The notes beneath the pieces are model-generated. The model searched no databases and was not told the origin of the DNA. It saw only the letters and a list, made by a program, of their open reading frames with translations. A stretch of DNA of 21,648 nt from a virus. Positions within the stretch are counted from its first letter, which is position 1, and each line of letters starts with the position of its first letter. The stretch lies in IMG/VR virus record IMGVR_UViG_3300020122_000556, positions 1 through 21,648 of that record. One strand, written 5' to 3'. This document shows positions 1-21,648 of this stretch, in pieces. A program made the translations under genes and the position numbers.

Positions 1-127
1 GACCCGGACATCCCCGAGGGGGCCACCCCGGGGAGTCCGGACAGAGCAATCAATGGGATCTGGCGACCCCGGTGCTATCTGGCAGACTTACTGTAGCACC
101 ACCGCCGGCCAATTACAAGCCCGGGAG
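1..127. repeat. Left terminal inverted repeat (127 bp)
   Basis: The first 127 bases are the exact reverse complement of the last 127 bases (21522-21648), compared base by base; identity breaks at position 128. On the right the same sequence carries the 5' part of the exonuclease frame, so the left copy is an inverted duplicate of that coding end. It abuts the IS1595-like fragment directly. It may be a true end of a linear element or a foldback/assembly artefact; the sequence alone does not decide. Confidence 0.97.
4..40. other. Strong hairpin at the contig tip
   Basis: CCGGAC (4-9) pairs with GTCCGG (35-40), TCCCCG (11-16) with CGGGGA (29-34), and GGG (18-20) with CCC (26-28), with single A bulges at 10 and 17 and a five-base loop. 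That is about 15 GC-rich pairs. By symmetry the same hairpin occurs at 21609-21645. It could stop assembly or prime a foldback, or be part of a real terminus. Confidence 0.8.
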
Positions 128-1762: not shown

Positions 1763-2050
1763 ATGAAGAAGATTGACCCCGAAAAGGTCCGGCAGCTCGC
1801 GGAGCAACTGAACGTCTTCGGCACCGCGACCCGACTGTCGATCGCGGCCCACCTGGCCCAGAAGGAGATGAGCGTCGGGGAGATCCACGAAGCAGTGGAC
1901 GTCACCCTCTCTGGCGTCTCCCAGCACCTCGCCAAGATGAAGGCGTGGGGCATCGTGATCCCCCGCCGCGAGGCACAGACGATTTACTACCGCCTGGCCC
2001 CGGACCATCCCGTCACCACCGCCGTGCTCGGGCTGCTGGAGGGGGCATGA
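1763..2050 (+). CDS. ArsR-like winged-helix transcriptional regulator
   Basis: A 95-residue protein with the ArsR/SmtB winged-helix architecture: helix pair FGTATRLSIAAHLAQKEMSV (residues ~19-38), recognition region TLSGVSQHLAKMKAWGIV (~48-65) and beta wing RREAQTIYYRL. It lacks the usual metal-binding ELCVCDL-type cysteines, so it is unlikely to be a metal sensor. It probably acts as a dimeric DNA-binding repressor of phage operons. The start is supported by AAGGGAG 8-9 bases upstream of ATG 1763. Its stop overlaps the next start (ATGA). Target sites are unknown; the palindromes at 9826, 12919 and 20033 are candidates only. Confidence 0.85.
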   Translation: MKKIDPEKVRQLAEQLNVFGTATRLSIAAHLAQKEMSVGEIHEAVDVTLSGVSQHLAKMKAWGIVIPRREAQTIYYRLAPDHPVTTAVLGLLEGA

Positions 2051-2301: not shown

Positions 2302-2579
2302 CCCCCTCCCTCACCGATCGCATCCTGAAGCGCGCCCTTGCCCAGGCCGGCATCTCCATGGAAGAGGCGCGCGCGTCCTTCAAGCCGGGAAGCCCGCCAG
2401 CCATGCCGTTTTTCCGCGAAGTCGATCGAGCCAGGAAACTGGCGGGCGCGGCCGAACGATTGGCCGCGCTCCGTCGACGCCCGATCTCCCTAGGTCTCCA
2501 CCAGATGTGCCGTTGCTTCGTCGGGTTTCTGCCCACCCCACCCAGCCTCCCGCCCCACCGACCGCAGGACCCCGCCTAG
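2298..2579 (+). CDS. Hypothetical basic protein, last gene of the left operon
   Basis: A 93-residue protein of unknown function. Residues 1-60 are helical and basic (SLTDRILKRALAQAGISM; ARKLAGAAERLAALRRR). The last third is Pro-rich and low-complexity (PTPPSLPPHRPQDPA) and less convincing as folded protein. The start overlaps the preceding stop (ATGA). Its TAG at 2577-2579 overlaps the stop of the convergent head gene ending at 2576, leaving no room for a terminator. Confidence 0.55.
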   Translation: MTPSLTDRILKRALAQAGISMEEARASFKPGSPPAMPFFREVDRARKLAGAAERLAALRRRPISLGLHQMCRCFVGFLPTPPSLPPHRPQDPA

Positions 2580-3457
2580 CGCTGTCCCCTCCTCCTGAGC
2601 CGCCGAGCACACCGGCATGCAGGGTGTGCCGGCGGCCCCTTTCCTCCGCGCCCCGGGAACGTCCCGCCGATCGGCGCACGGGCCCCTTTGAGCGGCAGAC
2701 AGATCGCCTTGCAGGCCCCAGGGATCGGCACCCACTCCTGCTCCCAGACGTTTGGGTCGATCTGGCCGGCGCGGACCCCCTCCTTCCAGATGAGATCCTG
2801 GGACTCGGAGGCTGCCCGGATCGTCTCCGTCCTCGCGATCACCAGGGAGCGGGACCGGAGCTTCTTCCGCCCCTCGCGGGCGACCATGCGGGCCACCTGC
2901 TCCGGGGGGCGACCATCCGCTTCCAGCTCGGCCTGATAGGCGGAGAGCGCGTTCGCCCGCCGGACGTCGAGCCCCACCACATCCCGGATGAGCTTGGCCG
3001 ACGCCTCGACCGTCCGCCCGGCCGAGAAGCCCTCTGCGATAATCGAGCGGACCGCCTCAAGCTGGCCCGAGCCGATGCCCTGGATGAGGTCCCCCACAAG
3101 GTCGCGGGCGGCCTGGGTGGCGCCGGCACGGAAGAGGCCGAGGTCCACGGGGGGGAGGTCGAGCCCCTCGGCGAAGACGAGCTCGCCAGCCATGGAGGCC
3201 CGGAGGATGAGATCCTCGAAGAGCGGCACGAGGTCCACCTGCAGCCGGCCGAGCAGCGTGTCCAGGGCGACCGCGGCCCGGAGGCTCCCGTAGCCGACCG
3301 CCCCGCCGGCCAAGATCCGGGCGAGGAGCGATAGGTCGATCTCGGCCTGGGCTTCTTCGGCCGCCGTGACGATGACGGTGCGGATCGGCTGCTCGGCGCG
3401 GCCGGTGTAGGCGCGGATCACCCGCTGCTCGGGCGGGATCGGGAAGGCGAGGGGCAC
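2576..3457 (-). CDS. Head morphogenesis protein, Mu gpF / SPP1 gp7 family
   Basis: A 293-residue minor head protein. The C-terminal half has the family signature: IARTETIRAASESQDLIWKE (~residues 206-225), a tryptophan-containing WEQEWVPIPG, paired cysteines in GACKAICLPLKG, and the closing PPAHPACRCARRL. Known members are a few copies per procapsid, bound to portal or DNA, needed for head assembly. The N-terminal ~190 residues are a long helical region. GTG 3457 is chosen because it lies 7 bp after a TACACT -10-like hexamer and no Shine-Dalgarno is present. It is the last head gene on this strand; where a tail module would follow, the reading meets the convergent left operon. Confidence 0.88.
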   Translation of the reverse strand: MPLAFPIPPEQRVIRAYTGRAEQPIRTVIVTAAEEAQAEIDLSLLARILAGGAVGYGSLRAAVALDTLLGRLQVDLVPLFEDLILRASMAGELVFAEGLDLPPVDLGLFRAGATQAARDLVGDLIQGIGSGQLEAVRSIIAEGFSAGRTVEASAKLIRDVVGLDVRRANALSAYQAELEADGRPPEQVARMVAREGRKKLRSRSLVIARTETIRAASESQDLIWKEGVRAGQIDPNVWEQEWVPIPGACKAICLPLKGARAPIGGTFPGRGGKGPPAHPACRCARRLRRRGQR

Positions 3458-3464
3458 GGGTGGG

Positions 3465-3493
3465 AGTGTAGCAGCCGGCGGAAACGTGGATTC
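3465..3493 (-). promoter_or_regulatory. Late-type promoter of the gpF-like gene, leaderless
   Basis: On the minus strand: GAATCC (3493-3488), a 17-bp spacer, TACACT (3470-3465), then 7 bp to GTG 3457. The same layout occurs before the minus-strand genes starting at 9770 and 12875. No Shine-Dalgarno precedes the GTG. Confidence 0.5.
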
Positions 3494-3624
3494 AGGAATA
3501 ATTTCGGGACATTTTTACAGGCGGCTCGGTCGGTCACATGAGCTAAGCCGTGGTCCGCCAGCATGTTACGCCGTTTTGGGGAGGGACACCCGACGAGCCG
3601 ATTACATGAGGAGAAATCGAGAAG

Positions 3625-3651
3625 GGGCCGGGCGGTGCTTCCGCCCGGCCC
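3625..3651 (-). terminator. Hairpin terminator after the capsid operon
   Basis: A perfect 11-bp GC stem, GGGCCGGGCGG (3625-3635) and CCGCCCGGCCC (3641-3651), with a 5-base loop, 8 bp past the TAG of the gene ending at 3660. On the minus strand it is followed by CTTCTCGATTTCTCC, pyrimidine-rich rather than a clean T run, so termination efficiency is uncertain. Confidence 0.7.
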
Positions 3652-3659
3652 GGGGAAAC

Positions 3660-4103
3660 CTACTTCTTCTCGACCTTGCCGGCCGCCTCGCGGCGGGCCA
3701 GCTCGGCGTGGGCGGCCGCGCTGAACTTCTTGTCGTCGCCGTACTTCGCCAGATAGGCGTCGGGCTCCATGTTGAGCGTCCACGGCCCGTCCGCCGCCGC
3801 CTTGCCGTCGTCGGCGGGCTCCTCGCCCTCCTGCGGCGGGGGCGGGGAGAGACGCTCCCCGATGCCCTTCGCTACGTGGTCGAGCGCCTCGTGCTCCGAT
3901 GTCAGCTCGTATTCGCTGTCCACGGCGAGCACGCCCCCGCCCGGCCCCATATGGGCCTTGAGTGCCTTCATCTTGATCGTCTTCTCCGGCATGACTTCTA
4001 CCTCCCGCGGCGCGAACCGCACGCCGCTCCATGGGTCGTGAGGGGGCTCCGGCCCCAGGGTCGGAGCTTTGTCGATCGTTACGCTGCCGTGCTTCTCTTC
4101 CAC
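3660..4103 (-). CDS. Small head-module protein after the capsid gene
   Basis: A 147-residue protein from GTG 4103, which has GGGCGGAG upstream and lies just after the capsid stop. An in-frame ATG at 3992 (110 residues) has GGGAGG nine bases upstream and may be the main start, because the conserved-looking part begins there with TIKMKALKAHMGPGGG and DSEYELTSEHEALDHV. That arrangement, a short beta strand followed by an acidic 'position' motif, is common in small phage proteins between capsid and connector genes. The middle is Pro/Glu-rich and the C-terminus Lys-rich. The exact role is not known. Confidence 0.7.
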   Translation of the reverse strand: MEEKHGSVTIDKAPTLGPEPPHDPWSGVRFAPREVEVMPEKTIKMKALKAHMGPGGGVLAVDSEYELTSEHEALDHVAKGIGERLSPPPPQEGEEPADDGKAAADGPWTLNMEPDAYLAKYGDDKKFSAAAHAELARREAAGKVEKK

Positions 4104-4116
4104 GAGGACTCCGCCC

Positions 4117-5733
4117 TTACGCCGGGGCGTTGTCGAAGGTGCCGGCGACGAAGGCCTCCGGGCGCCGAACGGCGAGACCGAGCCGCTCCTCACCCAGGAC
4201 CGTCACCAGGTTGTTGGTGAAGTCGTTCTCGTTCTGGTCGGCGAACCGGATGTTGGCCTGCTCGCGGTCGTAGAGAGTAGCGGCCCGGGCGAAGTCCCCT
4301 GCGAGCCAGGTGTCCGCCTTGATCGCGCGGGTCACGACCAGAGGCATCCGCCAGAGGCTCTGGCCGGCCGCGTAGGGGTTGAGGCCGGTCATGGACGACT
4401 CGCTGTCCACCCAGATGTACTCCCCGGTGGTCGACTTCTCCAGCTCGATCCCCTCCCAGACGGTCGGGTGGATGATGACGCCCGACGCCTCGAAGTCGGC
4501 AAGCTCGAGGAGCGTGCGGCTCCGGCGGATGGCGTCGGTCTTCGTGTCGCCGTGGGTGCCGGCGCTCCATTTATAGGCCTGGATATCCGGGTCGGTCAGG
4601 AGGCCCGAGATCTGGTTGCCAGTGCCCGTCGCGTACAGGAGCGCGATGTCCTCCTTGCGGAGAATGCCGTAGATCAGATCGGAGTCGATGCCCTGGCGCA
4701 GGCCCGGCATGTCGGCGAGCACCTGCCGGGTGAGCTTCATGTAGTTGGCGATGACCTGGACGTTCGCCGTCCTCTCCTCGAAGAACATCTGGGCTTCGGG
4801 CTTCTGCGCACCCTCCGCGACGAAGTCCGAGGAGCCGTAGTTGTTCATCCGTAGGGCCGTGATGGTACCGGTGGCGGGTGAGACGGTGCCGCTCGCGACC
4901 GCCATCGTGTAGGTGTTGGCACTGAGCACTTTGATGTAGCCGGCGATGTTGTAACCGGCCTGGTTCGCCCCGGCGATCTGGATGCGGTCGTGGTCATCGT
5001 AGCCGTGGGCGGTCTGTGTAATCGTCGCGAGGCCCCCGGTCTGGGTGATCGAGGTCACGGCAGATGGGGTGAGACCGGTGAAACCCTTCTGGCGGATGTA
5101 GACGATGTGCTGGCGGTCGACCGGCACCATGGGGATCAGGTCCCGGATGCGGAGAGACCGGCGGGTGAGCGGCATGTATCCGGGCACGAACAGCGGCGAG
5201 ATGAAGTTGGGGGAGGCGGTGGTGCCGAGAGCCTTGCGGACCTCGGCCGCCGGCACGCCCATGAAGGCCGGCTCCTGGCCGAAGCTCTTCATCGCGAGGG
5301 TGGGGAGGGAGTTGGCGCGGGTGGTCCCGTTGCCGTAGGACTCGAAGCTCGCGCGGGCGCCCTCGATCGTCTCCAGGAGCCGCTCGCCGGCGGTCTTGTA
5401 GGTGTCGCCGTCGCCGCCCGGCATGCCACCGCCGCGCTGGAGGGCCTTCTGGAGCTCGTCCATCTGCTCCCAGCGCTTCGTGAGGTCGCCCTTGACGGCG
5501 ACCAGTTCCTTCTGCGCCTCGGCGATGGCCTTCAGGTTGTCGTCGAGGCTCTTCTCCAGCTCGACCATCTTCTTGCCGTGCTCAGCCGACGCTTCCGGCC
5601 GCTCGCCGCGGGCCTTCATGGCCTCCAGGTCGGCTTTGTTGGCGTCCAGCTCTTTCTTGATCGAAGCGAGCGTCTTGTTGACATCGGCGTTGCTCGCGAT
5701 GACTTCGGCTTGGATCTCTTCGACGGTCGGCAT
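4117..5733 (-). CDS. HK97-fold major capsid protein with an inserted beta domain
   Basis: A 538-residue HK97-type capsid protein. Residues ~1-100 form a charged coiled coil like the scaffolding delta domain normally removed by the prohead protease. The mature fold is recognisable from IRDLIPMVPVDRQHIVYIRQ (~196-215), FVAEGAQKPEAQM, YMKLTRQVLADMP, the ATGTGNQISGLL loop and FTNNLVTVLGEERLGLAVR near the C-terminus. Between VYIRQ and FVAEGA, where HK97 has the E-loop, lies an extra ~70-residue beta-rich domain (224-294: ITQTGGLATITQTAHGY, IQIAGANQAGYN, ANTYTMAV), which resembles the FCCH-like modules found in other phage structural proteins. ATG 5733 gives a sensible start; longer in-frame sequence reads into the protease gene. 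The gene lies directly downstream of the protease, in the usual order. Confidence 0.93.
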   Translation of the reverse strand: MPTVEEIQAEVIASNADVNKTLASIKKELDANKADLEAMKARGERPEASAEHGKKMVELEKSLDDNLKAIAEAQKELVAVKGDLTKRWEQMDELQKALQRGGGMPGGDGDTYKTAGERLLETIEGARASFESYGNGTTRANSLPTLAMKSFGQEPAFMGVPAAEVRKALGTTASPNFISPLFVPGYMPLTRRSLRIRDLIPMVPVDRQHIVYIRQKGFTGLTPSAVTSITQTGGLATITQTAHGYDDHDRIQIAGANQAGYNIAGYIKVLSANTYTMAVASGTVSPATGTITALRMNNYGSSDFVAEGAQKPEAQMFFEERTANVQVIANYMKLTRQVLADMPGLRQGIDSDLIYGILRKEDIALLYATGTGNQISGLLTDPDIQAYKWSAGTHGDTKTDAIRRSRTLLELADFEASGVIIHPTVWEGIELEKSTTGEYIWVDSESSMTGLNPYAAGQSLWRMPLVVTRAIKADTWLAGDFARAATLYDREQANIRFADQNENDFTNNLVTVLGEERLGLAVRRPEAFVAGTFDNAPA

Positions 5734-5773
5734 CGTGCCGGCCCTTTCCCCCGCGCGGTGCGGGTGCTGAGAG

Positions 5774-6550
5774 TTAGGCCGCGATCCGGCCGCGCTTCCG
5801 GAGGGATTCCAGGAGCGGGGACAGGTCGGGTTGCTTCTTCTCGGCTTCCGCGGGGGTGGATTCGGGCGGCGTCGCCTTCGGCGAGGTGCCACTCTCCGGC
5901 GCCAGCAGTGCCTTGAGCGTGCCGCTCTGGGCTCCCAGCTCCTCATGAAGACGGAGGAGCGTCAGGGCGACGCGCCGTTCATCGGCCGAGAGCTTCGCGC
6001 TCTTCCGGGCCAGGGTGAAGCTCTTCAATACGTACGGCAGCTCGCTCAAGTTGTCGAGCATGTCGGCTTCGAGCGATTTGACGGCGAGGATGGTGGCGAG
6101 CGGGTTGGCCGGGTCGAGGTCGACCGGCCCGCACTCCTTGATGCCCAACTCCTTCAGGTCGAGCGTCTCGATCGGGTAGCCATCCGGGTCCTCGCCGTCG
6201 ATCGAGACAGAAGCGCGGATGATCTTCGCCCGGAAGGAGTAGCGGGAGAGCGTGCCATCCTTGACCATCTCCAAGCAGTCATCGCCGCTGGTGGTCTTGC
6301 TCACGTAGCCGACGGTCAGGAGGCCGAAGCCATCCTCCTCGGCGTGCCGGACTACCCCTAGCAGTTGCTCGTGGTTCCGCATGAGCTTGATCTGGCCCTG
6401 GGGGAGGCGCTCGGCGACCGATTTGGAGAAGGCGCCCGGCATGACCCGCATGCCCTGGAGATCCCGGTTGCCGAAGACGGCAGCGTAGGCCGTAATCTCG
6501 CGCCGGCCGGTGTCTGCGGCGAGCTCTACCTCAATGGGGATGCTGAGCAT
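5774..6550 (-). CDS. HK97-type prohead protease (peptidase U35 family)
   Basis: A 258-residue serine protease of the herpesvirus-assemblin/HK97 gp4 fold that cleaves the capsid delta domain during head maturation. The N-terminal domain (~1-125) shows YAAVFGNRD, the PGAFSKSV motif, the catalytic His in MRNHEQLLG (His60) and the serine region DGTLSRYSFRA (Ser102/Ser105, with Ser105 the likelier nucleophile). The following ~130 residues are a charged helical extension. It sits between the small gene ending at 6558 and the capsid gene, with the same orientation, the standard portal-protease-capsid order. Confidence 0.92.
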   Translation of the reverse strand: MLSIPIEVELAADTGRREITAYAAVFGNRDLQGMRVMPGAFSKSVAERLPQGQIKLMRNHEQLLGVVRHAEEDGFGLLTVGYVSKTTSGDDCLEMVKDGTLSRYSFRAKIIRASVSIDGEDPDGYPIETLDLKELGIKECGPVDLDPANPLATILAVKSLEADMLDNLSELPYVLKSFTLARKSAKLSADERRVALTLLRLHEELGAQSGTLKALLAPESGTSPKATPPESTPAEAEKKQPDLSPLLESLRKRGRIAA

Positions 6551-6557
6551 GTCGGCC

Positions 6558-6884
6558 TCAAGTTTCTACCGGCGGAGCCGGTGTGTCAACTTCCGGGGCG
6601 CCGACAGGCTGGACGTCGAACCCCAACGATGCGAGCCGTGCGGCGGCCTTCTCCGCCCGCTCGGCCTCGACCATGGCCGCCCTTTCCGCGCTCGGCTCGT
6701 CGTCAAAGGCGATGCCCTCCGGATCGTCGCGGCAGTCCCAGACGCCGCGGAACTCCCATACGCCAGACTCGGCTTTCTGGATTTCCAAGGCCATGCCGAG
6801 GGGATGCAGGAATAGTCGATTGATCTCCTGCAAGTAGCCGCGCCCCTGAAACTCAATCGGGTCGATGTATCTCACCTCGGCCAT
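6558..6884 (-). CDS. Small protein between portal and protease
   Basis: A 108-residue acidic protein starting MAEVRYIDPIEFQ. It contains INRLFLHPLGMALEI and VWEFRGVWDCRDDPEGIAFD, then a coiled-coil-like Glu/Ala-rich helix (SAERAAMVEAERAEKAAARL). Short proteins with a 'hPLGhal' segment and a DDPEGI-type loop are frequent in head modules of siphophage-like genomes, but I know no assigned function. It lies 11 bp downstream of the portal stop and 7 bp upstream of the protease start, within the operon. Confidence 0.75.
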   Translation of the reverse strand: MAEVRYIDPIEFQGRGYLQEINRLFLHPLGMALEIQKAESGVWEFRGVWDCRDDPEGIAFDDEPSAERAAMVEAERAEKAAARLASLGFDVQPVGAPEVDTPAPPVET

Positions 6885-6895
6885 GTGCGCTCCCC

Positions 6896-8323
6896 TTAGT
6901 TGGGCGTCGGCTGTTCGCTCGCTGGGTCCTCGACCGCCAGATCGGTGGCGGCACTCGGCAGGCCCTCGGCCTCCCCCTCGACGAGCGGGTCCGCGGTGTC
7001 CTCGGCGACCAGCTTTTTGAGGGGGACGAGCGTCCCGGGAACGAGAGGCTCGTCCCCGCCTTCGACCGACTCAAAGGGGAGGTCCATGCCGACGATGACG
7101 CTGTTGACGGGGATACCCATGTTCCGGCCCCTCTCGGCCGCCTCCAGCCGCTGCGGGAGCGTGTCCTTGGCCCCCGGCACCCCGGAGAGGTCGTAGGCGA
7201 TGTAGATCTCCCCGCGCCGCGAGAACGGGACGAACGCGCGGTTGAAGGCGTCCTCCAGGAGCTTGAGCATGTCGGCGCCGCCGAACTCCAGGAGGTGGGC
7301 CATGCCGCTCTCCAGGTTCGCGTATTTCGCGTCGGAGACGAACAGCGTCGGGCTGATGTTGAAGACGTTCGCCACCGTGTCCCTGGAGAGCGTTAGGGAG
7401 GCATCCCAGTCGCACTCCACCGGAGTGAGGGCCATAGGCTGCCAGGTCGACCCCGGCCCCATCACCAGGGGAACGCGAGCGTTCTCCGGGTTGGCGAACC
7501 GCGCCGCCAACAACCTCGCCTTCGTCTGGATCTGCTCGGTTGTCTTGGCGGTCGTGTCCGTGAACGCACCCGCGGGCACCATCAAATTGTTCGGCAGCCT
7601 CTCGTTCCATGCGATCATGGCCCGCACCATGTTGATGATCGGAGCAAGCGGGCGCATCGGGGACGTCCCCCAGACCAGTGAGGCGTCGACCTTCTGGGCG
7701 TGAACCACGCGCCAGTGCTCGACCAGCGGCAGGTTCGGACGGTCGATCCTTCGGTAGCCCTCGATCCACCGGGCCGGCTCCATCCCGCCCTCGCGCCGCT
7801 CGACCATCTTCCGCGCCCCGTACTCCATGACCGGGACCGGCCGCCAGAGCGCGGTCGACATCGGTTCGAGCTCGGCCGGCATCAGATCGGACCGCCTCCC
7901 GGTGTAGATCACCTTCCAGAGGGCGTTCCCCCCGCAGCAGATCGAAAGGACGCTGTGCGCGATCATCTGCGCCTGGGAGATGTATTCGTTGGGCCACTCG
8001 ATCGTTTTCTGGTAGGGGTGGCCGTCCTGGGCCTCCCACTCCCGGCGCCTGCGCTTACCGCGGGTCTCATAGACCTTCCACGACGCGGAGGCTGCGGCGC
8101 CCATGAGACGGTCAATGCACATGAACGGGAACGCGGAGCCCTGGAAGCCTTCTAGGTGGGCGCGCCGCTCGTCCCAATCGGTTTGAAGCGGCTGGCCGCC
8201 AGCGTAGCCGCCGAAGCCGCCCGTGAACTGGACGGGGGAGAGGGCGGTATCCTGGGAGGCGGGGGAGGCCGCCTTTCGTAGCTCGGGCGCCTCGGCGAGG
8301 GCGCGGGCGAGGCTGATTTTCAA
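6896..8323 (-). CDS. Portal protein, HK97 family
   Basis: A 475-residue portal protein, which as a dodecamer would form the DNA entry/exit channel at one capsid vertex. Family features: FMCIDRLMGAAASASWKVYE near the N-terminus, a ...GNALWKVIYTGRR segment, WRVVHAQKVDASLVWGTSPM, PLAPIINMVRAMIAWNER (stem/clip region), DTVANVFNISPTLFVSDAKYAN, LLEDAFNRAFVPF, and an IPVNSVIVGMDLPF motif before an acidic C-terminal tail. The TTG start at 8323 overlaps the TGA of the upstream gene (TTGA), as at two other places in the window. Length is typical. Confidence 0.93.
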   Translation of the reverse strand: MKISLARALAEAPELRKAASPASQDTALSPVQFTGGFGGYAGGQPLQTDWDERRAHLEGFQGSAFPFMCIDRLMGAAASASWKVYETRGKRRRREWEAQDGHPYQKTIEWPNEYISQAQMIAHSVLSICCGGNALWKVIYTGRRSDLMPAELEPMSTALWRPVPVMEYGARKMVERREGGMEPARWIEGYRRIDRPNLPLVEHWRVVHAQKVDASLVWGTSPMRPLAPIINMVRAMIAWNERLPNNLMVPAGAFTDTTAKTTEQIQTKARLLAARFANPENARVPLVMGPGSTWQPMALTPVECDWDASLTLSRDTVANVFNISPTLFVSDAKYANLESGMAHLLEFGGADMLKLLEDAFNRAFVPFSRRGEIYIAYDLSGVPGAKDTLPQRLEAAERGRNMGIPVNSVIVGMDLPFESVEGGDEPLVPGTLVPLKKLVAEDTADPLVEGEAEGLPSAATDLAVEDPASEQPTPN

Positions 8324-8592
8324 GCGGGCTCCGCGAGGGCGTAGTACCCGATCGCATCGGGGTCGGGAGACTCGCGGATCAGGCCAGCCGCCCCCATATC
8401 GTCGAGGAGAAGCTGGACCCACGAAAAGTTCCCCGAGCTGTTGCCGAGGTCGAAGTCGCGGTTGTACGCGACCGCCAGGCCCTCCAGGATCCCCCAGGCC
8501 GTCTCCTCCCGCTCGGCGAGCAGTTCGAGGACGAACTGCCTCTCGACAGCCTTCAACTCTTCTCGGGCATGGCCGCCGTGGCGAATTATCAC
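8320..8592 (-). CDS. Small hypothetical protein upstream of portal
   Basis: A 90-residue protein, helical and acidic. The body (AREELKAVERQFVLELLAER, then VQLLLDDMGAAGLIRESPDP) resembles a small winged-helix-like unit that predicts regulation or DNA contact, but no confident family match is possible by eye. GTG 8592 is chosen because it overlaps the previous TGA (GTGA); longer frames intrude into that gene. Confidence 0.6.
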   Translation of the reverse strand: MIIRHGGHAREELKAVERQFVLELLAEREETAWGILEGLAVAYNRDFDLGNSSGNFSWVQLLLDDMGAAGLIRESPDPDAIGYYALAEPA

Positions 8593-8846
8593 AGCGACAT
8601 CTCCGTCCCGTCGAAGCGGAACCGCCGCCGTTCCCCGCCCGAGATGAAGTCCACGCAATCGGGCGGGACGGCGGGATCGGTCAAGACCAGGGCGGGAAAG
8701 ATCGTGCCGACGAATGCACTCAGGGCGTACGCCAGCGGTCCGTGCTTCGGATCGGCCGCGACCGCGGCTTTGAGGGATAGAAAGTCCCCGGTCCGCACAT
8801 GGTTACCGTAGCGCCGAAGGTCGTCCTCGAAAGTCGGGGTTTTCAC
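8589..8846 (-). CDS. Small hypothetical protein
   Basis: An 85-residue protein starting at GTG 8846 with GGAGGAGG upstream. It has a central hydrophobic helix (GPLAYALSAFVGTIFPALVL, residues ~37-56) that may be one membrane segment or a buried helix, and a charged C-terminus (GGERRRFRFDGTEMSL). Its start overlaps the previous stop (GTGA). Function unknown. Confidence 0.65.
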   Translation of the reverse strand: MKTPTFEDDLRRYGNHVRTGDFLSLKAAVAADPKHGPLAYALSAFVGTIFPALVLTDPAVPPDCVDFISGGERRRFRFDGTEMSL

Positions 8847-9055
8847 GTCGCGACCTCCTCCGGGACCGTCCGCGGCCTCGCGGCTCGGAGCTGGAGCACA
8901 TACGCCCAGCCGTAGCCGGCCGCCGCCAGGAGGAGCCCGACACCGGCGGAGAGCGGCCACACCCACCATGCCGCCACCCCGACCCAGCCCCAGAGCCCGA
9001 GCGTCAGGCAGAGCCAGCCGACCACGGCGAGCCAAGGGAGGAGTCGGCTATCCAT
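8843..9055 (-). CDS. Small two-helix membrane protein (possible holin)
   Basis: A 70-residue protein with two hydrophobic segments, about residues 7-28 (WLAVVGWLCLTLGLWGWVGV) and 31-55 (WVWPLSAGVGLLLAAAGYGWAY), and a charged C-terminal tail (RAARPRTVPEEVAT). Size and topology fit a class II phage holin, but such small membrane proteins have many roles, no endolysin is visible, and the gene lies in the head operon, so the role is unproven. ATG 9055 follows closely on the stop of the small gene at 9048-9221. Confidence 0.65.
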   Translation of the reverse strand: MDSRLLPWLAVVGWLCLTLGLWGWVGVAAWWVWPLSAGVGLLLAAAGYGWAYVLQLRAARPRTVPEEVAT

Positions 9056-9221
9056 GGATGCCCAAGCCCTCCGGCATTACGCCTACCAACGGGTGCTCGG
9101 GTGTGGCGAGCTTACCGACGCGCTCCCATTCCCCGTCGGCGTCCACGCGCCCGAGTGCGCGAAAGTCGACAACCAGCCACCCGTGAGCCCATACCCGGGC
9201 CGGAATGGTGAGCCTATCCAC
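9048..9221 (-). CDS. Small hypothetical protein, 57 residues
   Basis: A short gene from GTG 9221 to TAG 9048-9050. The start lies inside the end of the upstream gene (stop 9214-9216) and the stop overlaps the next start, so it fits exactly into the operon. The peptide (MDRLTIPARVWAHGWLVVDF near the start, then DADGEWERVGKLATPEHP) has no membrane segment or Cys. Without it there would be a ~160-bp hole in an otherwise gapless operon. Function unknown. Confidence 0.6.
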   Translation of the reverse strand: MDRLTIPARVWAHGWLVVDFRALGRVDADGEWERVGKLATPEHPLVGVMPEGLGIHG

Positions 9222-9477
9222 GGGCCGCCCTCGCTTCCGCGAGCGGGATGCCGAGGACGGCCGCGATCGAGCGGGAAGACCAGCCGGCCGCTACGAGCTC
9301 GGGGAGCGTCCAGGTCACCGGGGCGGGTGCCGGCTTCGCGGGAAAGTCGTCGTCCAGGCGGGCGGCCTTGCGCGGCCAAGGGCCGCCGTGGCCCGGCATC
9401 CGAGCCCGCGGATGCCCTCGCTTGGCCCGCCACTGCTCGAGCCACGCCTGGCGCCGCTCCTGTTGCTCGGCAGTCAT
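9214..9477 (-). CDS. Basic protein with a C-terminal helix-turn-helix-like segment
   Basis: An 87-residue protein. The N-terminus is very basic (EQQERRQAWLEQWRAKRGHP), the centre Pro/Ala-rich, and the C-terminus (WTLPELVAAGWSSRSIAAVL, then GIPLAEARAARG) looks like a helix-turn-helix of the MerR/sigma-like kind. It may bind DNA, perhaps packaging-related as it begins the portal operon, but this is inference. ATG 9477 overlaps the TGA of the gene above (ATGA). Confidence 0.55.
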   Translation of the reverse strand: MTAEQQERRQAWLEQWRAKRGHPRARMPGHGGPWPRKAARLDDDFPAKPAPAPVTWTLPELVAAGWSSRSIAAVLGIPLAEARAARG

Positions 9478-9770
9478 AGGCCTCCTGGCAAGGCGACGCT
9501 GGCCCCCGTTGCTGGCCCCTCGACCGTGGCTGTCTGGAGGGTGGGCTGGGGGGGGCCCCCAAGCGCCCGCCCCAGCTCGGCGCAGTCGTGGACGACCCCG
9601 AGGACCAGCTCCAGCGCCTGGAGCTCCTCCTGCCGCTCCTTCCCCCTTTCGGTGGCGATCTCACGCCGCACCTCCCCAAGAGCCTCGTCCCAGGGCAATC
9701 CCTCGGCGGCGACCTGCCGGCAGAAGCGCAGCGCGGCAGCCTTGACCTGAGCGTAGAGCGCGGGGTCCAC
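9474..9770 (-). CDS. Hypothetical helical protein, first gene of the head operon
   Basis: A 98-residue protein: a helical N-terminal half (LYAQVKAAALRFCRQVAAEG, then WDEALGEVRREIATERGKER) and a Thr/Pro-rich tail. GTG 9770 is chosen because it lies 7 bp after TACACT in a late-type promoter with no Shine-Dalgarno. Its position at the head of the portal operon would suit a small terminase or assembly factor, but no helix-turn-helix is evident. Function unknown. Confidence 0.6.
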   Translation of the reverse strand: MDPALYAQVKAAALRFCRQVAAEGLPWDEALGEVRREIATERGKERQEELQALELVLGVVHDCAELGRALGGPPQPTLQTATVEGPATGASVALPGGL

Positions 9771-9777
9771 GGCGGAG

Positions 9778-9806
9778 AGTGTAACAGAGGGCGCGGGTTG
9801 GACTTG
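9778..9806 (-). promoter_or_regulatory. Late-type leaderless promoter of the head operon
   Basis: On the minus strand: CAAGTC (9806-9801), 17 bp, TACACT (9783-9778), then 7 bp to GTG 9770; AAGTCC with a 16-bp spacer is the alternative -35. The TACACT-N7-GTG part is the same as before the gpF-like gene. It is back-to-back with, and overlaps, the plus-strand -35 at 9804-9809. Confidence 0.5.
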
Positions 9807-9832
9807 CGGGGCGAATAAAACTGTAGTAGGAT
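9804..9832 (+). promoter_or_regulatory. Leaderless promoter of the radical SAM cassette
   Basis: TTGCGG (9804-9809), a 17-bp spacer, TAGGAT (9827-9832), then 7 bp to ATG 9840, which would be at +1. There is no Shine-Dalgarno. The -10 lies within the palindrome at 9826-9839. A 26/27-identical stretch (9816-9842) recurs at 12909-12935. Confidence 0.7.
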
Positions 9833-9839
9833 GGCCTAC
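9826..9839. promoter_or_regulatory. Palindromic operator candidate, copy 1
   Basis: GTAGG-ATGG-CCTAC overlaps the -10 hexamer and the predicted start point just before ATG 9840. Copy 2 is at 12919-12932 in front of another plus-strand operon. A repressor bound here would block RNA polymerase. The binding protein is unknown. Confidence 0.6.
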
Positions 9840-9983
9840 ATGAAAAACAACGCTGCCGAGAAGACCGCCGTGAATTGCACCTGCGGAGGCCACGACCGCG
9901 ACCGCGATGTCCACCGCGAGCACTGCCCCCTCTTCAAGGACCCCTCGCTCGCGCCGTGGCGCCAGAAGGCGAGCGCTCGGTGA
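9840..9983 (+). CDS. Small Cys/His-rich protein, 47 residues
   Basis: A short protein with CTCGGHDRDRDVHREHC (residues ~13-29), a Cys-His cluster (C-x-C, two His, C) that could bind zinc. ATG 9840 is at the predicted transcription start. The TGA at 9981-9983 overlaps the GTG of the radical SAM gene (GTGA), so the two are almost certainly co-translated. An in-frame GTG at 9870 is an alternative start. Its role is unknown; it may assist the radical SAM protein. Confidence 0.6.
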   Translation: MKNNAAEKTAVNCTCGGHDRDRDVHREHCPLFKDPSLAPWRQKASAR

Positions 9984-10774
9984 CCGCGCCGAGCCCCGCC
10001 CTCCCTGGCTGCACGCACATCTACGCCCCGGCCGGCCAGGCGGGGGAGTACGCTCCGCTCGCCGCCAACCCGTACCGCGGCTGCGGTCACAAGTGCGCCT
10101 ACTGCTATGTGCCGGCCGTCCTCCGGATGCCACGGGCCGAGTTCGACGCGGGCGCCGTCCCGCGGCCCGGCTTCCTAGCGAAGCTCACCCGGGAGGCGAA
10201 GAAGTACCAGGCGGCCGGAATCACGGAGCAGGTCATGCTCAGCTTCACGACGGACCCGTACCCGCCCGAGCACCACCTTCTCACCCGGCAGGTGCTCGCG
10301 GTGCTCCGGGACCATGGCCTTGGCTTCTGCACCCTGACGAAGGGCGGCGGCAGGGCGCTCCGGGACCTCGACCTCTTCCGGCCTGACCGCGACGCCTTCG
10401 CCTCAACTCTGACCTCCCTCGACCCGGCCTTCTCCGCGAAGTGGGAGCGCGGCGCCGCGCTCCCGGCCGAGCGCATCGCCACCCTTCGCGCCTTCCACGA
10501 TGCAGGGATCTTCACCTGGGTCAGCTTGGAGCCGACCCTGGACGTCGAGGCGAGCCTCACGATCGTCCAGGAGACCCACACCTTCGTAGACCTCTACAAA
10601 GTCGGCCGGGTCAACTACCTGCCGATGACGAGGACAACGGATTGGAGAGACTACGCGCTTCGGATGGTCGACCTCCTTCAGAAGGTCGGGGCTGGGCACT
10701 ACATCAAGAAGGACTTGCAGGGGTTTCTACCGGCCGGCTATCCCAACCCGCTGCGGGTGCCGCAACACCATTGA
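9980..10774 (+). CDS. Radical SAM protein, SplB-like (COG1533) family
   Basis: A 264-residue radical S-adenosylmethionine enzyme. The N-terminal NPYRGCGHKCAYCYVP holds the CX3CX2C iron-sulfur motif (Cys35, Cys39, Cys42). Downstream are VMLSFTTDPYPPEHHL (typical of the SplB/Rv2578c-like group), TKGGGRALRDLDLF, STLTSLDPAF, and VSLEPTLDVE, strand ends of the TIM barrel. The family includes spore photoproduct lyase and uncharacterised relatives, some of them phage-encoded; the substrate here is unknown. The GTG 9980 start overlaps the small Cys/His gene. It is convergent with the terminase, with stops one base apart, and on the strand opposite to the structural genes around it, like a separate accessory cassette. 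Confidence 0.88.
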   Translation: MTAPSPALPGCTHIYAPAGQAGEYAPLAANPYRGCGHKCAYCYVPAVLRMPRAEFDAGAVPRPGFLAKLTREAKKYQAAGITEQVMLSFTTDPYPPEHHLLTRQVLAVLRDHGLGFCTLTKGGGRALRDLDLFRPDRDAFASTLTSLDPAFSAKWERGAALPAERIATLRAFHDAGIFTWVSLEPTLDVEASLTIVQETHTFVDLYKVGRVNYLPMTRTTDWRDYALRMVDLLQKVGAGHYIKKDLQGFLPAGYPNPLRVPQHH

Positions 10775-10775
10775 A

Positions 10776-12875
10776 CTAGCCGATCCCGCCACCAAGTAGG
10801 AAGCTCGATAGCTTCAGCTCGTTGAACAGGTACGAGGTCGCGTCCACGAGGTCTAGCGGCTTCGTCACGCCGTCGAAAGCCTGGTGGCGGGAGCAGAAGA
10901 GGTCGTTCCACGGCTCGCCCCAGACGTCGGGAAGGATGAAGCAGCGGCCCATCCGCCCGTCCTCCTGGCCCTTGGCGTCCCGGAGCGGGGCCGCCGCCCC
11001 GGCATGCCCAGTCGCCCTGACCCGCTTCGAGCCCGCCGTCGAGACGATCGTCGCCATGTAACCCTCGGCCCGGAGCTCCTCCGCCCACTCAGTCGCCAGG
11101 ATCTTCCCGGCCGCCGCGGGGTCCTGGGGGAGGACGATCTCGACGCCGGGCCCGTCCTGGGCCGCCACCTCGAAGATGAGACCCTTCAGCGCGCTCGCCG
11201 GGTAGTAGTACTCGGCGGCGTGGGTGTAGAGCACCTCCTGGCGGGCGGTTATTCCCCCGCGGGTCGAGGCGGAAGCGTCGCCCTCGCCCTTCAGGGAGGC
11301 GGCATAGTCCCAGGCCCGGGCCTCCCGCTCCATGAGCGGGATCAGGCCGGCCTCGGTCAAAGCGTTGACGAGGGCGGTCAACTCCTTGGTCTCGAGCGCC
11401 TGCCAGACGACGAGGAGGGCGTCCCTGGTGCAGGGAAAGCTCCACCACCACCGCTCGAAAAGGCCGCCGCCCTTGTCGGGGAGCGGGTCCTGCTGATGGA
11501 TGGCGGCGAAAAGGTTGCCGTCCATGTTCTCCAGCTTCTTGAGCGCCGCAGCGTCCTCTAAGGCGGGGCAGAGCGGCTCGCCCGGCTCCCGGTGGTCCGG
11601 AATCACGGTCACCGTCCGCGGCCACGCCATGCGCGGGGCTCGCTTGAAGGCGGGCAGGTGGAGGACGGTCCACCCCTCGGCCGGGAGCTTCTCCTCCCTC
11701 TCGCGCTGGAGTATCCGGCCCCGGAGGTCGTGCTCCGCGAGGGCCTGATGGTTGACCACGATGGCGGCCGGCCGCTCGCCGTCCAGGTTTCGCCGGTTGT
11801 AGAACGTCCGCCAGAAGAACTGCTCCGCGTTCTCCTGGACGTGGGCTTTGAGCGCCTCCTTGATGTTCTGGAAGGGGTCGTCTACGACCCCGAGGCTGTA
11901 GCCGCGCCCCAGGGTCCCGGCGTCGATGCCGCGGGCCCACATGCCGCCACCCTTGAGCGTCCGCCAAAGCATTTTGTTCATGGAGTCGAGCCGGAAGGCG
12001 CCACCGGCATTGGCGTAGAAGGCGCGGGCGTCCGAGCTCATCTCAAAAGCGAGGTCCCCGCCGGCGCACAAGACCGCCGTCCACTCAAAGGGTCGAATGG
12101 TCAGGAAGTACGCCGGCAGGAGCCTCGACCAGATCAGGGACTTGTAGTACCTGGGCGGAGCCGACACCAGGAGTCGGATGATCTCCCCTTCGACGACCCG
12201 CTGAGCGGTATCGACCATGAGCTCTACGTGCTGATGCCACTGGAAGGCGGGGAGCAGTCGGACGATGAACGCCTTGAAGGTCTCGCGGACGGCGGCGATG
12301 ATCTGACCTCGCAGCGCAGCCGGCAGCTCCGAGGCGAGCAGTGCAGCCCGGCCACCGTCACCGTTCAGGGAGCGCCAGTGCTCGCGCACCCAACCCTCCT
12401 CCGGGCGGTGCGAGACCAGGACGAGCCGCGGGAGTTCGCCCTGGCCCGGGCCCGCGAGCGCCTTCTCGCGGAGCCGCTGGAAGGCGGGGAGGCCGAGCTC
12501 GTCCCCGTCATCGATCAGGAGGAGATCGCAGGTTCGGCGGGCCGCGGCTTCCCAGGTGGTGAGCTGGATCGTCGAGCCGTTCTTGAGCCGGGCGATGCCA
12601 CCGGGGAGCCAGCGGACATCCCCGGTCCCGAGCCCCGGCCCCTCGCGGAGCAGCTCCCAGATCCCGCCCGGCCCCTCCATGTGCTGCTCGCGAAGCGTGC
12701 GATCGTCTGCCGCCGCGATGGCGACCGCCAGCTTGCGCTCCATCGCCGCCCGAAGGATCGCCATCACCCGGAGGGCGTGAGAGGCGCCCGAGCGCGGCTC
12801 GGCGGCGAGGAGCAGCTCCCGGCCGCGAGCTTGGACGGCACGGAGCTGGCCTGGATAGAGGGGGAGGTCCCGCAC
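10776..12875 (-). CDS. Large terminase with two ATPase domains
   Basis: A 699-residue DNA-packaging motor and nuclease. Residues ~235-699 are a normal large terminase: Walker A-like SAPPRYYKS (238-246, Gly replaced by Tyr), GTLGRGYSLGVVDDP with Walker B (328-334), and an RNase H-like nuclease with Asp523 (RAWDYAAS), Asp585 (LPQDPAAAGK) and Asp678 (DLVDATSYLF). Before it lies a second terminase-like ATPase domain, residues ~1-210: LYPGQLRAVQ, a degenerate Walker A EPRSGAS (26-32, Lys missing), KNGSTIQLTT, Walker B LLLIDDGDEL (118-127) and a coupling motif LVLVSHRPEEGWVREHW. Start GTG 12875 is 6 bp after TACCCT in a late-type promoter; upstream in-frame sequence is the intergenic promoter region. 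Usual large terminases are 400-600 residues. Confidence 0.9.
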   Translation of the reverse strand: MRDLPLYPGQLRAVQARGRELLLAAEPRSGASHALRVMAILRAAMERKLAVAIAAADDRTLREQHMEGPGGIWELLREGPGLGTGDVRWLPGGIARLKNGSTIQLTTWEAAARRTCDLLLIDDGDELGLPAFQRLREKALAGPGQGELPRLVLVSHRPEEGWVREHWRSLNGDGGRAALLASELPAALRGQIIAAVRETFKAFIVRLLPAFQWHQHVELMVDTAQRVVEGEIIRLLVSAPPRYYKSLIWSRLLPAYFLTIRPFEWTAVLCAGGDLAFEMSSDARAFYANAGGAFRLDSMNKMLWRTLKGGGMWARGIDAGTLGRGYSLGVVDDPFQNIKEALKAHVQENAEQFFWRTFYNRRNLDGERPAAIVVNHQALAEHDLRGRILQREREEKLPAEGWTVLHLPAFKRAPRMAWPRTVTVIPDHREPGEPLCPALEDAAALKKLENMDGNLFAAIHQQDPLPDKGGGLFERWWWSFPCTRDALLVVWQALETKELTALVNALTEAGLIPLMEREARAWDYAASLKGEGDASASTRGGITARQEVLYTHAAEYYYPASALKGLIFEVAAQDGPGVEIVLPQDPAAAGKILATEWAEELRAEGYMATIVSTAGSKRVRATGHAGAAAPLRDAKGQEDGRMGRCFILPDVWGEPWNDLFCSRHQAFDGVTKPLDLVDATSYLFNELKLSSFLLGGGIG

Positions 12876-12881
12876 GGGGCA

Positions 12882-12910
12882 AGGGTAGCACCCGCCTTGC
12901 GCCCGGATTA
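12882..12910 (-). promoter_or_regulatory. Late-type leaderless promoter of the terminase
   Basis: On the minus strand: TAATCC (12910-12905), 17 bp, TACCCT (12887-12882), then 6 bp to GTG 12875. It resembles the promoters at 3465 and 9778. The region is shared with the divergent plus-strand promoter. Confidence 0.45.
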
Positions 12911-12925
12911 AAACTGTAGTAGGAT
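12897..12925 (+). promoter_or_regulatory. Promoter of the right plus-strand operon
   Basis: TTGCGC (12897-12902), 17-bp spacer, TAGGAT (12920-12925), with the start point expected near 12932-12934. An ATG at 12933 would be leaderless; ATG 12951 has AAGGAG six bases upstream. The element 12909-12935 is 26/27 identical to 9816-9842. Confidence 0.7.
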
Positions 12926-12932
12926 GACCTAC
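12919..12932. promoter_or_regulatory. Palindromic operator candidate, copy 2
   Basis: GTAGG-ATGA-CCTAC, overlapping the -10 and start point of the right operon. It differs from copy 1 (9826-9839) only in one spacer base. The shared site predicts co-regulation of the radical SAM cassette and the right operon. Confidence 0.6.
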
Positions 12933-12950
12933 ATGGAAAAGGAGAGCGCC

Positions 12951-13433
12951 ATGGAGATCAGAAATGCGAGCGGCGAGGACGTCGAGTTCCGGGTCGAGGA
13001 GGTTTGGGCCGGTGGCCGGCTTGATCTGAAGTGGGCCGATCCCGACCAGGGCCGGGCCGCCTTCGAGGGAATGGTCAGGGCGCTCGACCCGCAGCCCAAC
13101 GCCTTCGACTCCCTGGTCGACCGCATCGTCCGTTTCTTCCTCATCCCCGCCTGCCAGTACCGGCCGGCCGAGGGCGAGAAATACGACCCTCACGCGCCGT
13201 GGAAGCTCGTCGCTTTTGCGGGCGGTATCATCGCCGGCTGGGTCACCAGCTTCGACCCGGAGCTGGTAGACCAGGCCCGACTCGCCCAGCACATGACCGA
13301 CGCATGCCGGGAGCGGCTGTTCGCGGTCGAGCTAGAGAAGGAGTTCTGGCCGGCGCGCCTCAAGATCGCCGGCCCCAAGGGCCTGCCGACCCGAGTCGCC
13401 GAGGCGCTGGCGCGGATGGGGGTGGATGCGTGA
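12951..13433 (+). CDS. Hypothetical protein, first gene of the right operon
   Basis: A 160-residue protein I do not recognise. It has an acidic N-terminus (MEIRNASGEDVEFRVEEVW), a hydrophobic helix (SLVDRIVRFFLIPACQY, ~residues 49-65) and LVAFAGGIIAGWV (~82-94), and a Lys/Arg-rich C-terminal third. ATG 12951 has a canonical AAGGAG 6 bases upstream; the in-frame ATG 12933 at the predicted +1 would add six residues. Its stop overlaps the following GTG (GTGA). Confidence 0.65.
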   Translation: MEIRNASGEDVEFRVEEVWAGGRLDLKWADPDQGRAAFEGMVRALDPQPNAFDSLVDRIVRFFLIPACQYRPAEGEKYDPHAPWKLVAFAGGIIAGWVTSFDPELVDQARLAQHMTDACRERLFAVELEKEFWPARLKIAGPKGLPTRVAEALARMGVDA

Positions 13434-15931: not shown

Positions 15932-16110
15932 GGCGCCTCACCCTCCGCACCTTCGGCCACCCGGTCGCCTACGGACGGCCCTTCGACGCGATCTGTGGGG
16001 AGGTCAAGGCCCTCCAGATCGATGCCGTGCGGGCCGAGAAGCGCATCGCGGGCGTCGGCGACTTCATGACCGCACAGGGCGCCGCTCGCGCCCCTGAGGG
16101 GCGCGAATGA
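15928..16110 (+). CDS. Small basic hypothetical protein
   Basis: A 60-residue protein of unknown function: RRLTLRTFGHPVAYGRPFDA then a helical segment LQIDAVRAEKRIAGVGDF. It overlaps the previous and next genes (ATGA at both ends), supporting its reality within the operon. Confidence 0.6.
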   Translation: MRRLTLRTFGHPVAYGRPFDAICGEVKALQIDAVRAEKRIAGVGDFMTAQGAARAPEGRE

Positions 16111-16706
16111 GCACCCGCCCCCTCCCCCCCTGGCCCTGGCCGGCCGATGATCCGCGCCGCTTCATGCGCTACGTCACCGCCCTCGACCTCCCGACTGGGC
16201 TCGACGCGGACGGCCGCAAGCTCTGCGCCTGGTGCCCGAACCCGCTCCCACGGGGGCGTCGCCGGTACTGCTCAGCCGCGTGCGACTTCGAGGCGGGCAT
16301 CCGCATGCAGCCGCTCCTCGCCCTCCGGCATGTAGGGGAGAGGGACGGCTGGCGCTGCGGCAAATGCGGGCGCAAGCTCTGGCCGAAAGACCACGAGTAC
16401 ACAGTGCTGCGCCGCGTCGTACCCGAGTCCTGGCTTGGCCGCAGCATCCGGCGCTACGAGGCAGACTATCGGCACCTTCAGCGCATGCACGAGGCGCTGA
16501 AAACGGGCCTGAAGGCCGGCATGATTCGCTACGAGCTTGACCACGTCGTCCCGGTCTCGGAAGGTGGCGGCTGCTGCGGCCTCGACGGATTCCGGCTCCT
16601 GTGCCTTCGGCCCTGCCATGCCGAGGAGACAGGCAAGCTTCGCCGCCGCCTGAACGCCCGAAAGCGAGAGGCTGTGCAGCCCGTCCTCTTCGAGGCGAGC
16701 CGATGA
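16107..16706 (+). CDS. HNH endonuclease
   Basis: A 199-residue HNH nuclease. It carries zinc-type cysteines CAWC (40-43), CSAAC (55-59) and CGKC (84-87), the core YELDHVVPVSEGGG (Asp145, His146), then LLCLRPCHAEETGK with His171. The central HNH Asn is not seen, Asp160 occupies its region. A 55-residue helical insertion (RYEADYRHLQRMHEALKTGL) separates the zinc knuckle from the catalytic core. Phage HNH proteins often help terminase cut during packaging, but they may also be homing enzymes; this one lies far from the terminase. The ATG overlaps the previous gene. Confidence 0.85.
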   Translation: MSTRPLPPWPWPADDPRRFMRYVTALDLPTGLDADGRKLCAWCPNPLPRGRRRYCSAACDFEAGIRMQPLLALRHVGERDGWRCGKCGRKLWPKDHEYTVLRRVVPESWLGRSIRRYEADYRHLQRMHEALKTGLKAGMIRYELDHVVPVSEGGGCCGLDGFRLLCLRPCHAEETGKLRRRLNARKREAVQPVLFEASR

Positions 16707-21355: not shown

Positions 21356-21648
21356 CTACAGAAGCTCCAGCCCGCAGAGCCCGCACAGGTGGCGGGCGAG
21401 GAGGACGGTAGCCCGGACGTCCCCGAGCGCGTCGTGGGCCTGCTCGTGCGGGATGCCGTAGTGCTCGCAAAGAGTTCCGCCCACCACTCTAACCACCGTA
21501 GCCATCTGCTCATGCAGCGGCCTCCCGGGCTTGTAATTGGCCGGCGGTGGTGCTACAGTAAGTCTGCCAGATAGCACCGGGGTCGCCAGATCCCATTGAT
21601 TGCTCTGTCCGGACTCCCCGGGGTGGCCCCCTCGGGGATGTCCGGGTC
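21356..21648 (-). CDS. Partial DEDD-type 3'-5' exonuclease (DnaQ-like), N-terminus missing
   Basis: The C-terminal end of an exonuclease: GTLCEHYGIPHEQAHDALGD and VRATVLLARHL match motif III of DnaQ/RNase T-like enzymes (HxAHDALxD, with the catalytic His and Asp). The acidic motifs I and II are not visible in the 74-97 codons available. The frame is open to the contig edge and a GTG at 21577 inside the terminal repeat could start a short version, but a functional enzyme would need upstream sequence. A promoter or start cannot be chosen. Its 5' part lies within the right terminal repeat. Confidence 0.75.
   Translation of the reverse strand, partial: PGHPRGGHPGESGQSNQWDLATPVLSGRLTVAPPPANYKPGRPLHEQMATVVRVVGGTLCEHYGIPHEQAHDALGDVRATVLLARHLCGLCGLELL
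21522..21648. repeat. Right terminal inverted repeat (127 bp)
   Basis: Exact reverse complement of 1-127. It holds the 5' part of the exonuclease frame (minus strand) and the tip hairpin at 21609-21645. The right copy is continuous with a coding sequence that looks natural, while the left copy is attached to insertion-sequence debris, so the right copy is probably the original. Confidence 0.97.

Follow-up and report, generated by a model that had tools for sequence, protein, structure and literature searches.

How did a stretch of viral DNA with a full set of head genes come to have no tail genes beside them? The window analyzed here, the whole 21,648-nt stretch at positions 1–21,648 of IMGVR_UViG_3300020122_000556, was originally predicted to be one of three things: a capsid-forming satellite (cf-PICI) that takes its tails from a helper, a tail-less virus, or an incomplete contig. 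The last option is right. We put at roughly 96% the probability that this is a conventional tailed phage, neither a satellite nor a tail-less virus, that was split at a 170-nt inverted repeat and whose tail module sits on a partner contig. What looked like a head without a tail is no real feature.

The head and packaging genes of the window are as follows.

2576–3457, minus strand: gpF-like minor head protein (Phage_Mu_F, E = 4.5e-4, below the Pfam cut-off; PHROG head morphogenesis, 5.6e-17)
3660–4193, minus strand: small conserved protein between gpF and capsid (open reading frame; homologues in the 62-kb relative described below, at 53208–53651, and in an 18,989-bp fragment)
4117–5733, minus strand: HK97-fold major capsid protein (Phage_capsid, 5.4e-37)
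5774–6550, minus strand: prohead protease (S78; 1.4e-11)
6896–8422, minus strand: portal protein (7.2e-33)
10776–13292, minus strand: large terminase (PHROG, 4.1e-36)

Family matches bear out the portal, protease, capsid, gpF-like protein and terminase that had been read from the letters alone, including the core set of the Caudoviricetes (HK97-fold capsid, portal and terminase); only the placing of the terminase within 2576–9770 was wrong. The capsid open reading frame spans 4117–5946, but its homologues begin at MPTVEEIQ, so the gene occupies about 4117–5733. The gene at 3660–4193 likely uses the 147-aa start used in the 62-kb relative. Other features of the window include the following.

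9875–10774, plus strand: radical SAM protein, between portal and terminase (family match)
16107–16706, plus strand: HNH endonuclease (family match)
9803–9847 and 12896–12940: a pair of 45-nt stretches with 84% identity, each lying upstream of a plus-strand gene and running into its start

The 45-nt pair is likely a repeated leader or promoter. The 62-kb relative carries a DUF5131 protein in the slot where the window has its radical SAM protein, and this portal–terminase slot seems to exchange enzymes. Searches against Rfam gave no RNA match for the window or for those parts of the partner contig that were covered.

As a description of the window, the claimed lack of tail genes holds: among the scanned window proteins there is no convincing match to tape measure, tail tube, connector or fibre families, and PhageMin_Tail, present in both longer related records, is absent. 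No endolysin was detected in the window either, as had been claimed, but this says little, since none was detected in the longer relatives and few families were tried (Amidase_2 and Peptidase_M15_4 are absent from the window, the partner contig and the 62-kb relative).

Two relatives show what lies beyond gpF. The first is IMGVR_UViG_3300005330_000003, the 62-kb relative, an uncultivated tailed phage, 62,477 bp long, that carries a direct terminal repeat of 90 bp. Its head genes are 80%–88% identical to those of the window at the nucleotide level, and its portal and capsid are about 91%–92% and 88% identical in amino acids. (A 21.4-kb contig from another sample, IMGVR_UViG_3300005544_000668, is 100% identical to part of this genome, which therefore recurs between samples.) In the 62-kb relative, gpF ends at 52,254, and next comes a short island on the opposite strand that includes an ArsR-like gene; the head-tail adaptor starts 1.8 kb away, at 50,474. 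The second is an independent contig, the 18,989-bp fragment IMGVR_UViG_3300009101_000240. Partial and more distant (45%–93% amino acid identity to proteins of the 62-kb relative), it carries on one contig, in this order, capsid, gpF, ArsR-like gene, adaptor, tail genes and tape measure, the order also seen in the 62-kb relative and in the joined genome described below. A related phage with tail genes next to these head genes, the finding named in advance as fatal to a tail-less reading, thus exists in two records. The window retains part of the same arrangement.

1763–2050, plus strand: ArsR-type helix-turn-helix gene, part of the short island on the reverse strand that separates gpF from the tail module (nucleotide identity and conserved position)

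Positions 1900–2051 of the window are 83% identical in nucleotides to 51390–51541 of the 62-kb relative, inside a gene whose position is conserved in both relatives, and an ArsR helix-turn-helix match is present among the scanned proteins of the relatives. The minus-strand operon had been described as ending against a convergent plus-strand operon. Plus-strand genes do exist there (the ArsR-like gene and its neighbours), but they do not end the morphogenesis module; judged by this synteny, the convergent operon is a short island inside the module, between gpF and the head-tail adaptor.

The window stops shortly beyond this island, in a repeat.

1–127, plus strand: inverted repeat, left copy (127 nt in the window, 170 nt after joining to the partner contig; point where the assembly broke)
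21522–21648, minus strand: inverted repeat, right copy (100% identical to the left copy)

The two copies are perfect reverse complements, and the sequences diverge from the very next base. The length of 127 nt is also that of the largest k-mer commonly used by SPAdes. According to the CheckV paper, the lengths of end repeats tend to coincide with the k-mer sizes of assemblers, and just 33.2% of contigs with ITRs qualify as high quality (PMC8116208). When 57 nt of the repeat were searched for exactly among 2.9 million viral contigs, a single further contig turned up, IMGVR_UViG_3300020122_000428 (40,960 bp), which carries the repeat at each of its ends; no further record among those contigs or 50,697 phage records contains it (the window's own record excluded), and the 62-kb relative lacks it. 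This partner contig likewise ends in a perfect 127-nt inverted repeat, and an exact 84-nt overlap (100% identical) connects it to each window end in a joinable orientation. At these overlaps each contig runs past the end of the other, so they are junctions and not common outer termini, and the window's repeat extends 43 nt beyond each window end into the partner. A single 170-nt inverted repeat in one genome explains the lengths of 127, 127 and 84 nt (127 + 127 − 84 = 170). The 170-nt repeat holds a strong hairpin (z = −2.3); scans of 800 bases per side found no promoter beside it, and the terminator-like sites are weak only. We also considered the window as a complete linear genome with true inverted termini, and rejected this because its ends overlap the partner as junctions and its repeat length equals k = 127.

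Read through the shared repeat, the window extends into tail genes, again contrary to what a satellite or a tail-less virus had been expected to show. At the start of the partner contig lies a head-tail adaptor (PHROG 442, E = 3e-7) and after it a tail-completion/neck protein (6.5e-11); the contig also encodes a tape measure of 2,290 aa (PHROG, 4.8e-35; PhageMin_Tail, 2.6e-26) and a collagen-like fibre (4.1e-35). A tail module with a tape measure, a Caudoviricetes trait, is therefore found in both the partner contig and the relatives. No sheath family matches alongside the tape measure, and several tail genes match no family at all; the virion may be siphovirus-like.

Joined, the two contigs give a circular map of 62,440 bp, compared to 62,477 bp for the 62-kb relative. 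They align to complementary, non-overlapping parts of that genome, and their GC contents are 0.677 and 0.681. When the window is placed first and the partner is appended in reverse, 38 of 38 aligned blocks (32,033 nt) fall on one strand of the 62-kb relative and are colinear with it except for two short stray matches. This is the probable orientation of the join; the opposite one leaves 21,197 nt of aligned sequence inverted relative to the 62-kb relative and is less likely. It is unlikely, we think, that the repeat is an active recombination site in a population of two isomers, with the 21-kb head/replication segment inverted relative to the tail segment.

The window would then comprise, in about 21.5 kb or about a third of the genome, the head and packaging segment and some of the replication segment of a conventional long-tailed dsDNA phage with a circular map of ~62.4 kb, and the tail module would be located on IMGVR_UViG_3300020122_000428. 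Of the two copies of the perfect 170-nt inverted repeat, one would separate the head module from the tail module, and the second would fall in the early region. Short-read de Bruijn assembly with k = 127 would have collapsed this repeat, and the resulting break would explain why the genome came out as two contigs that both end in 127 nt of the repeat. Such a phage would build its own head and tail and need no helper.

The sequences beside the repeat copies are disturbed.

184–432 (approximate), minus strand: IS1595 (ISXO2-like) transposase, C-terminal fragment by the left repeat copy (DDE_Tnp_IS1595, E = 1.3e-12)
433–712 (limit approximate), minus strand: PAPS-reductase-like gene, N-terminal fragment, cut at the transposase fragment (PHROG 424, E = 1.3e-6)
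21356–21570, minus strand: DnaQ-type exonuclease, C-terminal fragment, cut at the right repeat copy (weak RNase_T match, reading frames)

The DDE_Tnp_IS1595 match covers the last 43 model positions only, and the fragment is up to 75% identical in amino acids to plasmid IS1595 transposases. It is fused directly to the truncated PAPS-reductase-like gene, whose PHROG 424 match covers residues 17–88 only; the stretch at 184–712 is a decayed insertion in the phage genome. The weak RNase_T match covers the last 25 model positions. On the partner contig, the last 0.4 kb (of the segment 39001–40960) holds the first part of an SMC/RecF-like ATPase, recognized solely by its Walker A motif GGENGAGKST and cut off near the repeat; the protein upstream of it shows a weak resemblance to a Gp3-like recombination directionality factor. 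In the joined genome 3.3 kb separate gpF from the adaptor, compared to 1.8 kb in the 62-kb relative, the excess being due to the repeat and the transposase and PAPS-reductase fragments. Repeat copies flanked by truncated genes on several sides may reflect a rearrangement linked to a transposon, a local chimera or the absence of a small segment. Any of these would leave the verdict unchanged, since the relatives alone place the tail genes.

The join itself, which is proposed from the repeat overlap and synteny, could in principle be mistaken: the window may be a tailed-phage fragment and the partner a piece of another phage, the two having in common only the repeat, which could be mobile or widespread. 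We consider this very unlikely, as none of the other viral contigs and phage records searched contains the repeat and the two contigs fill complementary parts of one map; they probably come from one population or assembly. Even with an unrelated partner, the placing of a tail module after gpF would stand on the relatives. Less credible still is a cf-PICI-like satellite that builds heads itself but takes its tails from a helper. It would account for a window with head and packaging genes and an HNH endonuclease but no tail genes; however, the head genes are colinear with, and closely similar to, those of a 62-kb phage bearing a tail module, and the integrase looked for as a sign of a satellite is missing. 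Tyrosine integrase (PF00589) and serine recombinase (PF00239) are absent from the window, the partner contig and the 62-kb relative in searches with positive controls, and we see no sign in these three of satellite nature or of lysogeny through an integrase or resolvase. A tail-less virus fares no better, with tail genes on the partner contig and past the same boundary in the relatives. A bipartite phage packaging two linear segments separately, which the perfect terminal inverted repeats and common end sequence of the contigs might suggest, is scarcely conceivable, given that their outer ends differ, the 84-nt overlaps are junctions, both repeats have the length of a common assembler k-mer and the close relative is a single contig.

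These results take one spurious case off the list of possible new satellites or tail-less viruses, and IMGVR_UViG_3300020122_000556 and IMGVR_UViG_3300020122_000428 should be handled as one phage. More generally, a terminal inverted repeat equal to the assembler k-mer can make a fragment look complete when, as here, it marks an assembly break, and contigs of this kind could enter databases as closed genomes.

Among known phages, the 62-kb relative has its head, tail and early modules in the same order as the joined genome; it differs in lacking the repeat and the roughly 1.4-kb insertion around it, and its recombination region holds different genes. Cultivated phages are far more distant: in INPHARED (GenBank phages) the portal match is MW202897, at 26% amino acid identity to the window portal, Gordonia phages match the window capsid at 32%, and the tape measure matches that of Pontimonas phage phiPsal1 at 38% over 12%. 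By these protein comparisons, the phage would have no close relative among INPHARED records. Alignments of its capsid and tape measure against 84,980 genomes returned no match that would indicate a host. Capsid-forming PICIs and the Streptomyces satellites Mulch and Flayer group their head and packaging genes as the window does (PMC10690885). Published cf-PICIs also encode head-tail connectors (PMC10690885), yet none was detected with the window's head genes; the connectors are on the partner contig. The cf-PICI trait of head and packaging genes without tail genes is true of the contig only, since the joined genome and its relatives carry the tail module. Whereas cf-PICIs, Mulch and Flayer are separate, small, helper-dependent genomes (PMC10690885), the tail genes that go with the window's heads belong to the same genome.
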